From Tepidamorphaceae bacterium (GTDB lineage Bacteria; Pseudomonadota; Alphaproteobacteria; Rhizobiales; JAKSCL01): a stretch of DNA of 64,000 nucleotides. Every line of letters starts with the position of its first letter. Position 1 is the stretch's first letter. Both the position numbers and the translations under genes were made by a program. The stretch is from NCBI GenBank assembly GCA_028289445.1, contig JANQPO010000017.1, positions 351,537 through 415,536 of the forward strand, in the 5' to 3' direction. The notes beneath the pieces were generated by a model that saw only the letters and a program-made list of their open reading frames with translations, was not told the origin of the DNA and made no database searches. Below are positions 53,584 to 58,398 of this stretch, in pieces.

Positions 53584-55359
53584 TCACGCGACCTGCTGCG
53601 GCCGCATGTCCGCCGGATCGATCCCGGCAACGATGTTCGGCTTCTTCATCGCGTCGCGGCGGAACGGCTCGCCGAGTTCCTGGTTTAGGATCACCTCGAT
53701 GAACGTAGTCACGCCGTCGTCCTGTGCTTTGCAAGCGGTCTGAAGCGCTTCGGTCAGGTCGGCCTGGTTCTTCACGGTCACGCCCTTCAGCCCGCAGCCT
53801 TCCGCCACCTTGGCGTAGCTTAGATGCGGGTCAAGCTCAGTGCCGACGAAGTTGTCGTCGTACCACAGCGTCGTGTTGCGCTTCTCGGCGCCCCACTGAT
53901 AGTTGCGGAAGATCACCATGGTGATCGCCGGCCATTCCTGGCGGCCGATGGAGGACATCTCTGACATGGAGATGCCGAAGGCGCCGTCGCCCGCGAAACC
54001 CACCACCGGGACGTCAGGACACCCGATCTTGGCGCCGATGATTGCCGGAAAGCCATAGCCGCACGGCCCGAACAGACCGGGTGCCAGATATTTCCGCCCC
54101 TCTTCGAAGGTCGGATAGGCGTTGCCGATGGCGCAGTTGTTGCCGATGTCCGACGAGATGATCGCGTTCTTCGGTAGGCCCGCCTGAATGGCCCGCCAGG
54201 CCATGCGCGGTGACATGCGATCCGGGTCGCGGTCGCGGGCGCGTTCGTTCCAGGACGTGCCCGGATCGTCGTCCTCGTGATCCATCGAGGACAGCGCCTG
54301 AAGCCAGGCGGACTTCGTCTTGTGGACCAATGCTTTGCGGTCGTCGCGGCCGGCATCGCCGGCGGTGTCCGACAACTGTTCCAAGATCTGCTCAGCCACC
54401 TGTTTCGCGTCGCCGCAAATACCCACGGTCACCTTCTTCGTGAGGCCGATGCGGTCAGCGTTGATGTCGACCTGGATGATCTTTGCCCCCTTCGGCCAAT
54501 AATCGATGCCGTATCCCGGAAGCGTCGAGAAGGGGTTGAGACGGGTGCCGAGCGCCAAAACCACATCGGCCTTCGCGATCAGCTCCATCGCCGCCTTCGA
54601 TCCGTTATAGCCGAGCGGCCCGACGGAGAGCGGGTGGGAGCCGGGGAAGGCGTCATTGTGCTGGTAGTTGCAGCAGACCGGCGCGTCGAGCCGTTCGGCG
54701 AGCGCTTTGGACGCGGGGATGGCGCCACCGATAACGACACCGGCACCGTTCAGGATCACTGGGAATTGCGCCTCGGAGAGAAGCTTCGCCGCTTCCGCAA
54801 TCGCCGCCTTGCCGCCAGACGGCCGCTCGAATTCGATAATCTGCGGCAATTCGATGTCGATGACCTGGGTCCAGTAGTCGCGCGGCATATTGATCTGCGC
54901 TGGCGCCGACCCACGGCGCGCCTTTTCGATGACCCGGTTCAACACCTCCGCCACGCGGGACGGGTCGCGCACCTCTTCCTGGTAGCAAACCATCTCGCGG
55001 AACATCGCCATTTGTTCCACTTCCTGGAAGCCGCCTTGGCCGATGGTCTTGTTGGCCGCCTGCGGCGTGACCAGGAGCATCGGCGTGTGGTTCCAATAAG
55101 CGGTCTTGATGGCGGTCACGAAGCCGGTGACGCCCGGACCATTTTGGGCGATCGCCATCGCCATCTTGCCGGTCGACCGGGTGTAGCCGTCGCAGATCAG
55201 GCCGCCGTTCGTTTCGTGCGCCACGTCCCAAAAGGTGATGCCGGCCTTTGGGAAGAGATCGGAAATCGGCATGAAGGCCGAGCCGATAATGCCAAAGGCG
55301 TGCTCGATGCCGTGCATTTGCAGGACTTTGACGAAGGCCTCTTCGGTGGTCATTTTCAT
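53584..55359 (-). CDS. xsc: sulfoacetaldehyde acetyltransferase
   Basis: MKMTTEEAFVKVLQMHGIEHAFGIIGSAFMPISDLFPKAGITFWDVAHETNGGLICDGYTRSTGKMAMAIAQNGPGVTGFVTAIKTAYWNHTPMLLVTPQAANKTIGQGGFQEVEQM, characteristic of Xsc. Confidence 0.93.
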   Translation of the reverse strand: MKMTTEEAFVKVLQMHGIEHAFGIIGSAFMPISDLFPKAGITFWDVAHETNGGLICDGYTRSTGKMAMAIAQNGPGVTGFVTAIKTAYWNHTPMLLVTPQAANKTIGQGGFQEVEQMAMFREMVCYQEEVRDPSRVAEVLNRVIEKARRGSAPAQINMPRDYWTQVIDIELPQIIEFERPSGGKAAIAEAAKLLSEAQFPVILNGAGVVIGGAIPASKALAERLDAPVCCNYQHNDAFPGSHPLSVGPLGYNGSKAAMELIAKADVVLALGTRLNPFSTLPGYGIDYWPKGAKIIQVDINADRIGLTKKVTVGICGDAKQVAEQILEQLSDTAGDAGRDDRKALVHKTKSAWLQALSSMDHEDDDPGTSWNERARDRDPDRMSPRMAWRAIQAGLPKNAIISSDIGNNCAIGNAYPTFEEGRKYLAPGLFGPCGYGFPAIIGAKIGCPDVPVVGFAGDGAFGISMSEMSSIGRQEWPAITMVIFRNYQWGAEKRNTTLWYDDNFVGTELDPHLSYAKVAEGCGLKGVTVKNQADLTEALQTACKAQDDGVTTFIEVILNQELGEPFRRDAMKKPNIVAGIDPADMRPQQVA

Positions 55360-55516
55360 GGGCGTGCGTCCTCGTGGCATGTCGTGGCGTTGTCGGATTG
55401 CAGTATTGTCTGTCCCCGGCGTTCGCGAAAGAGCGCGCGCGCCGAATGTGCGACCTTTGAAGATGTCTTAGGGGACGCGCGGCCTTGCTCTAGCGCCACT
55501 CTGTCCCAATCGGTTG

Positions 55517-55537
55517 GGCCAGAATATTCTTCTGGCC
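55517..55537. promoter_or_regulatory. 8-5-8 dyad in the divergent xsc/aminotransferase intergenic region
   Basis: ggccagaa-tattc-ttctggcc, perfect arms. Confidence 0.4.
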
Positions 55538-55647
55538 TCCCGGCTTGGTCTTTGCTGGCGCAATCGGGGTAGCCTGATCCCATGATATCTGTGGCCTAAT
55601 CTATCATGCCAGTCCGTCATCGGACTTTGCCACCTAGGGAGTGAGCC

Positions 55648-56976
55648 ATGGCAATGCCTGCTGCCGCCAACCAGCCGACCAATTCGCTGGAACAACATTG
55701 GATGCCGTTTTCCGCCAACCGCGACTTCAAGGCCGATCCACGCCTCGTCGTCAAAAGCGAAGGCGTTTATCTCTGGGACCATAAAGGTGGACAAGTGATC
55801 GACGGGTCGTCCGGTCTGTTCAACGTCGCGGCCGGTCACGGGCGACAGGAGATCGCCGATGCGGTCTATGCTCAGATGCAAATGAACGACTACACCGCGC
55901 CGTTCGGCCTCGGTCATTCCGGATCGTTTGCGTTTGCCGAGAAGCTGTCGCGAATCCTGCCGGATCCGTTCAACCACGTCTTCTTCACCAATTCCGGGTC
56001 TGAGTCGATCGACACGGCCTTGAAGATCATCATGGCCTATCACCGGGCGCGCGGCGATGCGCAGCGCAGTCGCTTCGTGTCGCGCGAGCGCGCCTATCAC
56101 GGCGTCAATATCGGCGGCGTATCGCTGTCGGGGATGGTCAAGAATCGCGAGACGTTCCCGGTGGTGATGCCCAACATCGTCATGTTGCGCCACACCTGGG
56201 ACGAGTCGCGGCGCTTCGAGCGCGGCCAGCCGGAGGAGGGCGCGGAGCTTGCGAACGATCTCCAGCGCTTCTGCGACACCTATGGCGGAACGACGATCGC
56301 AGCCGTCTTCGTCGAACCGGTGGCCGGCTCGACCGGAACGCTGGTGCCGCCCAAGGGCTATCTGGAGCGCCTACGGGAAATCTGCGATGCGAACGGCATA
56401 CTGCTCGTCTTCGACGAGGTGATCACCGGTTTTGGCCGCCTTGGAACGCCGTTTGCGTCTCACGCCTTCAACGTAACGCCGGACATCATCACCATGGCCA
56501 AGGCGCTGACGAATGGCGCCATCCCGATGGGTGCCGTTGCAACGCGCGATAAGGTCTATGAGACCGTCGTCGGCGCGGCGCCTGACAAGGCGATCGAGTT
56601 CTTCCATGGCTATACCTATTCCGGACACCCGGCCGCCTGCGCCGCCGGTCTTGCCACCCTCGACATCTACGAGCGGGAAGGGCTGTTCGACCGGGCGGCG
56701 GAACTGTCCGACTATTTCCTCGATGCCATCTGGTCATTGAAGGACATCGACTGCGTTTTCGACCTGCGCGGCTATGGGCTGATGGCCGGCGTCGAGGTGC
56801 AACACGACGGCGTACCGGGCCGGCGCGGCACGGCGCTCCAAAAGCAGATGTTCTGGGACGGAGTCCACGTGAAGTTCACCGGCGACACGGCAATCGTCGC
56901 GCCGCCCTTGGTGTCCGAACGCCGCCATGTCGATGAGATCGTGGAGAAGATGGCGAAAACGCTAAAGACGGTTTAG
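55648..56976 (+). CDS. class III (omega) aminotransferase, probable taurine/hypotaurine:pyruvate aminotransferase by context
   Basis: 442 aa; NSLEQHWMPFSANRDFKADPRLVVKSEGVYLWDHKG, LLVFDEVITGFGRLGTPFA, ITMAKALTNGAIPMGAV; divergent from xsc. Confidence 0.88.
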   Translation: MAMPAAANQPTNSLEQHWMPFSANRDFKADPRLVVKSEGVYLWDHKGGQVIDGSSGLFNVAAGHGRQEIADAVYAQMQMNDYTAPFGLGHSGSFAFAEKLSRILPDPFNHVFFTNSGSESIDTALKIIMAYHRARGDAQRSRFVSRERAYHGVNIGGVSLSGMVKNRETFPVVMPNIVMLRHTWDESRRFERGQPEEGAELANDLQRFCDTYGGTTIAAVFVEPVAGSTGTLVPPKGYLERLREICDANGILLVFDEVITGFGRLGTPFASHAFNVTPDIITMAKALTNGAIPMGAVATRDKVYETVVGAAPDKAIEFFHGYTYSGHPAACAAGLATLDIYEREGLFDRAAELSDYFLDAIWSLKDIDCVFDLRGYGLMAGVEVQHDGVPGRRGTALQKQMFWDGVHVKFTGDTAIVAPPLVSERRHVDEIVEKMAKTLKTV

Positions 56977-57242
56977 GGTCCATACTCAGTGAGGTTATGC
57001 GTTCTGCGTGTGTCGGATTTCGTTTCTGACAAGGCGCAAGACCGCCGGAAGTCTGGCTGACTTTCAAGGGCTTGCAACGCCGTCGGGGGCGAAATCCGCC
57101 GCGCCCGAAGGGTTTGGCGAGAAACCGTCCATCTGCCACGCAAACCTCTCTCGAATAGGCTCTGGCCTGTCCTTTGTTCGGTTTGCTCGCATCTGAACGA
57201 TTCTCGCCAAACAGAACGCATGACTTCACTGAGTATGGACCC
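56976..57242. mobile_element. MITE-like non-autonomous element with 31-bp terminal inverted repeats and TA target duplication
   Basis: Left gggtccatactcagtgaggttatgcgttctg (56976..57006) vs reverse complement of right end (57212..57242) gggtccatactcagtgaagtcatgcgttctg: 29/31 identical; flanked by TA (56974-56975 and 57243-57244). Confidence 0.85.
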
Positions 57243-57255
57243 TAACACCGCCTTC

Positions 57256-58398
57256 ATGGATGCCATCGTTGCTCTCAATGCCGGGTCGTCGAGCGTCAAG
57301 TTCGCTTGTTTTGGCGCCGACGACCTGGCGCCGGTCCTTCGGGGCGAGGTCGATGGTATCGGGTCCCGCACACGCCTGAAGGTCGATGGCGCGGCTGGCG
57401 ACCTCGACCCGGATGCCAACCACGAAACGGCGATCCGGCATATTCTGGAGACAGTTGTCGGACCGCGCGTCGATCGTTGCCTGGCCGTTGGTCACCGGAT
57501 CGTTCACGGCGGCACGCGATTTACGCGGCCGGAGATTGTCGACGATGCGGTGCTGGAGGAGATCGAAGCGCTGAGTCCGCTGGCCCGCTCACACCAGCCT
57601 CACAATGCGGCTGGCGTGCGGGCCGCAATGACGTCGTGGCCCGACACCCCCCAGGTCGCCTGTTTCGACACCGCCTTTCACGCCACGCTGCCGGCGGAAC
57701 GCCAGGTTTTCGCGATTCCGTATTCGCTCGCGGACGAGGGCGTGCGCCGTTACGGATTTCACGGCTTGTCCTACGAGGGCGTGGCGCGGGCGCTGCCCGA
57801 TCTCATTGGTGCGGCAGCGCAGGGTAGGGTGGTTGTCGCACATCTCGGCAACGGCGCCTCGCTGTGCGGACTGGTCGCCGGTCAAAGCCGATGGACGTCG
57901 ATGGGTTTCACGCCACTCGACGGTCTCGTCATGGGGCGCCGACCCGGCCGGCTCGACCCCGGCGTCCTGGTCTGGCTGATGCGAGAAAAGGGGGTGGATG
58001 CCGATGCGCTCGATGCGCTGTTGAATGCGCAATCGGGCTTGCTCGGTCTGTCGGGCTTCTCCCAGGACATGCGCGTTTTGCTTGAAAGCGACGACCAGCG
58101 CGCCCGTTTCGCCGTCGATGTCTTCGTCGACCGCCTGGTGACAGAAATCGGCGCGTCGGCGGCGGCAATCGGCGGCTGCGATGCCCTGGTTTTCACTGGC
58201 GGGATTGGAGAAAATGCCGCGCCCATTCGCGAACGGGCCGTCGACCTGTTGAGTTGGCTTGGCTTCACAATGGATAGCGACGCCAATCAACAGGGAGCCG
58301 GCATCATATCCGCGCCATCATCGAAGCCCATCGCAATCGTGCGCGCCGACGAAGAGGCGACGATTGCCGTAGCAACGCGAGACGTCGTGCGCTCTTGA
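57256..58398 (+). CDS. ackA: acetate kinase
   Basis: MDAIVALNAGSSSVKFACF, GHRIVHGG, RYGFHGLSYEGVA, VVAHLGNGASLCG, LVFTGGIGENAAPIRER; native ATG probably 57256, upstream ATG at 57220 lies inside the repeat element. Confidence 0.93.
   Translation: MDAIVALNAGSSSVKFACFGADDLAPVLRGEVDGIGSRTRLKVDGAAGDLDPDANHETAIRHILETVVGPRVDRCLAVGHRIVHGGTRFTRPEIVDDAVLEEIEALSPLARSHQPHNAAGVRAAMTSWPDTPQVACFDTAFHATLPAERQVFAIPYSLADEGVRRYGFHGLSYEGVARALPDLIGAAAQGRVVVAHLGNGASLCGLVAGQSRWTSMGFTPLDGLVMGRRPGRLDPGVLVWLMREKGVDADALDALLNAQSGLLGLSGFSQDMRVLLESDDQRARFAVDVFVDRLVTEIGASAAAIGGCDALVFTGGIGENAAPIRERAVDLLSWLGFTMDSDANQQGAGIISAPSSKPIAIVRADEEATIAVATRDVVRS

Follow-up and report, generated by a model that had tools for sequence, protein, structure and literature searches.

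A TA-flanked MITE in the aminotransferase stop codon before ackA and its probable IS5-family mobiliser

The insertion between the aminotransferase gene and ackA

The genes for Xsc, an omega-aminotransferase and AckA adjoin one another at 53584–58398 of the 64,000-nucleotide stretch of DNA analysed here, which we call the window (Table 1). The aminotransferase–ackA neighbourhood was not seen in 29 relatives; the content of the three-gene region suggests a cluster for taurine or sulfoacetaldehyde dissimilation, with acetyl phosphate made by Xsc feeding AckA. The aminotransferase matches the NCBIfam AptA model at 595 bits, and in 29 orthologues (72–81% identity) the stop is at the homologous position or a few codons away from it.

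Read directly, positions 56974–57244 consist of TA, 267 bp and a second TA. Removing the 267 bp together with one TA restores ggt TAA cac..., which confirms the original prediction that the insertion fell in the aminotransferase stop codon, that it changed this stop from TAA to TAG through the leading G of the element, and that the aminotransferase and AckA proteins are both intact. The native ackA ATG stands 11 nt past the duplicated TA, so that the original stop-to-start spacing was about 11 nt; with the element in place this distance is 280 nt. An empty site, which comparison of genomes might have supplied, was not found: the element is absent at the aminotransferase loci of the 29 orthologues, and in none of them is ackA the neighbouring gene.

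Table 1. Features of the junction and of the inserted element (window positions)
Feature	Coordinates	Strand	Remarks
xsc, sulfoacetaldehyde acetyltransferase	53584..55380	-	makes acetyl phosphate, the AckA substrate; metabolic context, divergent gene
Omega-aminotransferase gene (AptA type, Aminotran_3)	55648..56976	+	stop codon holds the insertion; stop now TAG (TA + first G of element)
Left TA of duplicated target dinucleotide	56974..56975	.	target TTAA, fits YTAR
Non-autonomous element (MITE), 267 bp	56976..57242	+	without transposase coding
Left terminal inverted repeat, 31 bp	56976..57006	+	
Inner hairpin 1, arms CGGATTTCG../..CGAAATCCG	57006..57105	+	module common to a sister MITE family with different ends
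Inner hairpin 2 (tttggcgagaa / ttctcgccaaa)	57112..57212	+	
Right terminal inverted repeat, 31 bp	57212..57242	-	
Right TA of duplicated target	57243..57244	.	
TIR-derived in-frame ackA extension MTSLSMDPNTAF	57220..57255	+	ATGs at 57220 and 57235, both predicted fully paired in stem
ackA (acetate/propionate kinase), from likely native ATG	57256..58398	+	

The countable details of the predicted MITE-like element likewise hold, its 31-bp terminal inverted repeats (TIRs) being identical at 29 of 31 positions and flanked by TA. Over 34 nt its outer inverted arms (56973–57006 and 57212–57245) show 94% complementarity, and over 12 nt its inner arms (57112–57123 and 57201–57212) show 100%; within the window, matches to the TIR 16-mer at zero mismatches are confined to the two ends of the element. 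Of the ORFs inside or overlapping it, the four that were tested have no Pfam match. The element is thus an insertion and a non-coding MITE, with the features by which bacterial MITEs are recognized: short length (below ~600 bp), TIRs, a target duplication, no transposase gene, and presence at multiple unrelated sites.

Predicted RNA fold and ackA expression

As a single strand the element folds to -156 kcal/mol (z = -11.7; 0 of 200 shuffles as stable), in agreement with the earlier suggestion of a folded RNA. Eight full copies from two genomes have a common fold, an outer stem enclosing two inner hairpins, with compensatory changes in 25 of 99 pairs; this covariation is not proof of RNA function, because palindrome correction in replication can also yield it. 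A covariance-model search of the element against Rfam gave no match up to E = 5.

In the predicted fold the aminotransferase stop and the native ackA start flank the base of the stem. A transcribed element would close into a stem with two inner hairpins, at whose base stop and start would meet. The upstream ATG that the TIR was said to have created does exist in frame at 57220 (MTSLSMDPNTAF-MDAI...), with a second at 57235; its use as a start is unlikely, as this upstream ATG lacks an evident Shine–Dalgarno sequence and, like the second, is predicted to be fully paired. Because of this pairing, and because no promoter-like site was found inside the element, AckA translation is expected to start at 57256. 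The element may influence ackA expression, and candidate RNA effects include the loss or preservation of translational coupling and RNase processing.

One elaboration, compatible with the mobile origin favoured below, is that the MITE has been co-opted: as an RNA hairpin it would now determine the proportion of aminotransferase to AckA, by way of RNase III/E processing or of lost coupling. The element lies within a likely transcript, folds stably, contains no promoter-like site and widens the spacing between stop and start from about 11 to 280 nt, all of which would suit such a role. However, its seating in a stop codon is explained by target choice and purifying selection alone, and there is no sign of selection on the ackA copy in particular; we consider co-option unlikely at this locus.

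Copies, relatives and the probable mobiliser

The source genome is a draft assembly of 26 contigs, some of which end inside copies of the element. It contains at least three further full copies, 86–87% identical, and four half copies at contig ends; one more copy has an internal deletion, and a sister family is represented twice. The search for further copies that had been proposed thus finds the element to be multi-copy, not single-copy. These copies have unrelated flanks, and a TA within CTAG or TTAA borders most of the complete ones. A full-length relative at 76–77% identity is present in a Tepidamorphaceae genome, and a search of a plasmid collection gave one partial match only. The original description of the insertion as recent is unsupported, as the copies stand ~13% apart and no autonomous partner was found in the source genome. 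A closer match of the left arm to its own right arm than to the right arms of other copies amounts, in the four complete copies, to only 1 of 24 permutations.

Several further traces were seen in this assembly. The half copies are the ends of contigs C8, C9, C16 and C5 (L005, L006, L007 and L008, respectively), each inside an element copy, and the right halves L007 and L008 have apparently identical interiors and different TIRs. The sister MITE family (L009:1382-1655 on C8 and L010:1390-1660 on C15) matches the element in length (271 bp in L010, TAs included) and has only inner hairpin 1 in common with it (83% and 78% identity), its ends being quite different (TAGGCCGTGTGGACGAA.. / TAGGCTGTATCGACAT..), which suggests that ends were swapped around a common core. 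A lone exact match to the TIR variant of the ackA copy (GGGTCCATACTCAGTGA) lies after a PTS IIA-like gene (L017:1500-1518; C8:223187) with the rest of the element absent, and is likely a remnant. No IS was found at the solitary TIR-like sites of the source genome.

A scan of 84,980 genomes with the TIR query TAGGGTCCRKACTCAATT returned at least 119 loci, and the matches listed lie almost all in Alphaproteobacteria. An IS5 transposase sits just inside the TIR end in 57 of 119 loci among the matches listed. Complete elements with ends TAGGGTCC..GGACCCTA measure 827–848 bp and carry two overlapping frames, with an A4G6 run at the overlap in all four IS elements checked; L184, the single element tested against families, matches NF033580 IS5_3, DUF4096 and DDE_Tnp_1. 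The family consensus TIR mostly agrees with the IS ends at 14–16 of the first 16 positions and at only 3–7 of the next 15, and the variant TIR of the ackA copy (CAGTGA for CAATTA) at only 11–13 of 16. The base before the TA is C at 144 and T at 33 of 180 ends, which fits TA duplication at YTAR.

From these observations the feature is very probably a miniature passenger, without coding capacity, of an IS5-family IS of the IS711/IS427-like type (~840 bp), probably mobilised in trans by that family. The transposase of the IS would act on the common ~16-bp end GGGTCCRKACTCAATT, excise or copy the element, and integrate it at a YTAR target, whose TA would thereby be duplicated. As the 26-contig draft holds no IS5_3 transposase, we infer the mobilising partner from other genomes; within the assembled part of its own genome, at least, the element beside ackA is an orphan. 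The autonomous IS with the same TIR that the original prediction called for is thus found as IS5-family elements in other genomes and not in this assembly, and it is through those genomes that the MITE ends match an autonomous element. In the Tepidamorphaceae genome, close relatives of the MITE are accompanied by an IS5 copy with TAGGCTCAGGACTCATT ends (L236:1383-1801) that is decayed and has lost internal sequence; it is possibly their former mobiliser.

The original prediction had instead placed the element with IS630/Tc1-mariner-mobilised MITEs, a class to which RUP or Nezha-type elements belong, and TA duplication and CTAG-rich targets are indeed typical of IS630. But a DDE_3 (IS630-type) transposase is present in only 2 of the 13 genomes with element relatives that were examined, being absent from the source genome and from 10 of 12 related ones, and the identical ends flank IS5 transposase genes at the 57 loci among the matches listed. 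TA duplication at YTAR is, moreover, equally the rule for IS711 (PMC3163539). We therefore reject an IS630 origin as highly improbable. Least credible is a conserved cis-regulatory or structural operon RNA that is not mobile, such as an attenuator or processing hairpin: the very strong fold, the compensatory changes in stem pairs and the location between co-directional genes would fit it, but TA-flanked copies recur beside unrelated genes with TIRs matching IS ends, the element is absent from orthologous aminotransferase loci and Rfam offers no match, and the repeated copies refute this as its primary identity, with secondary co-option possible.

The element has partial counterparts elsewhere. 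ERIC, RUP and Correia/NEMIS are likewise imperfect palindromes, short and flanked by TA, that become part of transcripts; the likeness is one of description, and they differ in their hosts and in transposases that are other or unknown. IS711 (also IS6501) of Brucella, an IS5-family element of 842 bp with overlapping ORFs and TA duplication at YTAR (PMC3163539), resembles by description rather than alignment the ~840-bp elements that share the MITE ends in length, target and two-frame layout; the MITE, in contrast, has a length of 267 bp and no coding content. The IS427 group of Paracoccus (IS1248, ISPaes1, ISPpa6 and others) comprises elements of 832–865 bp with mostly 2-bp duplications and two ORFs joined by frameshifting (PMC3281130). 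These too are like the ~840-bp elements in size, duplication and layout and, unlike the MITE, are autonomous; our IS427-group label is by size, target duplication and frameshift architecture and not by a tree with ISfinder references. The text of PMC3281130 contains no MITE derivative with such ends. MITEPye1 of Paracoccus yeei, an alphaproteobacterial MITE of low copy number that forms a long stem-loop RNA (PMC11578231), shares host class, copy number and stem-loop with the element, but its ends are those of the IS1182 rather than the IS5 family. Bru-RS1 and Bru-RS2 of Brucella, as cited in PMC3163539 from Halling & Bricker 1994, are intergenic palindromic repeats associated with IS711, Bru-RS1 (103 bp) being described as an insertion site for it; as far as that citation goes, they are similar by description, not sequence, as intergenic palindromes tied to IS711.

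Seating in stop codons

We counted stop-codon seating on 180 ends, IS and MITE ends pooled, each with 450 nt of flank or more. An end was scored as seated when an open frame of 140 or more codons, with third positions (GC3) like those of coding sequence, closed exactly at the junction; the counts use open-frame length and GC3 rather than annotation. By this measure 53 of 180 ends (29%) are seated in a stop codon. For control CTAG sites the figure is 76 of 670 sides (11%), which gives a Fisher odds ratio of 3.3 (p = 2e-8). Interruptions of a frame in the other two registers, taken together, are less frequent than at control sites. An excess persists after rough removal of intragenic control sites (odds ratio 2.5, p = 2e-5). 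In this family of MITE and IS ends, seating in stop codons is general. Two further cases occur within the source genome: one copy lies in the stop codon of an SDR gene that precedes a DGOK gene, and a sister-family copy lies in the ccmI stop, 4 bp before ccmE; the ccmI–ccmE gap is 275 nt with this copy versus a median of 37 nt in 29 relatives, which serve as a proxy empty site. Two other loci (L072:1440-1706 and L198:3079-3250) each have a pair of convergent open frames that apparently share one palindromic CTAG as their stops, with the element exactly there.

Part of this seating is expected, because YTAR targeting and the leading G of the element keep the stop: a TAA or TAG stop becomes TAG. 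Insertion into such a stop would leave neither gene damaged, and at ackA a stop-preserving insertion of this kind would have placed the element between the two genes. Target availability and the removal of harmful insertions explain part of the excess, and perhaps not all of it. We found no description of a family-wide stop-codon bias in the open-access papers searched.

More tentatively, and with some doubt, we propose that IS711-like IS5 elements and their self-folding MITEs may have colonised alphaproteobacterial operons chiefly via stop codons, the YTAR target and leading G keeping the stop and the closed stem rejoining it to the next start, so that an insertion would be nearly silent for protein and translation. 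The MITE group, apparently undescribed and order-wide in alphaproteobacteria, is now linked to a probable IS5/IS711-like mobiliser in place of the IS630 guess. Its seating provides a quantitative and testable rule for the sites at which such elements survive, namely exactly in stop codons. If the folded RNA also preserves the coupling of neighbouring genes, it would offer a parasite an elegant way of living within operons.
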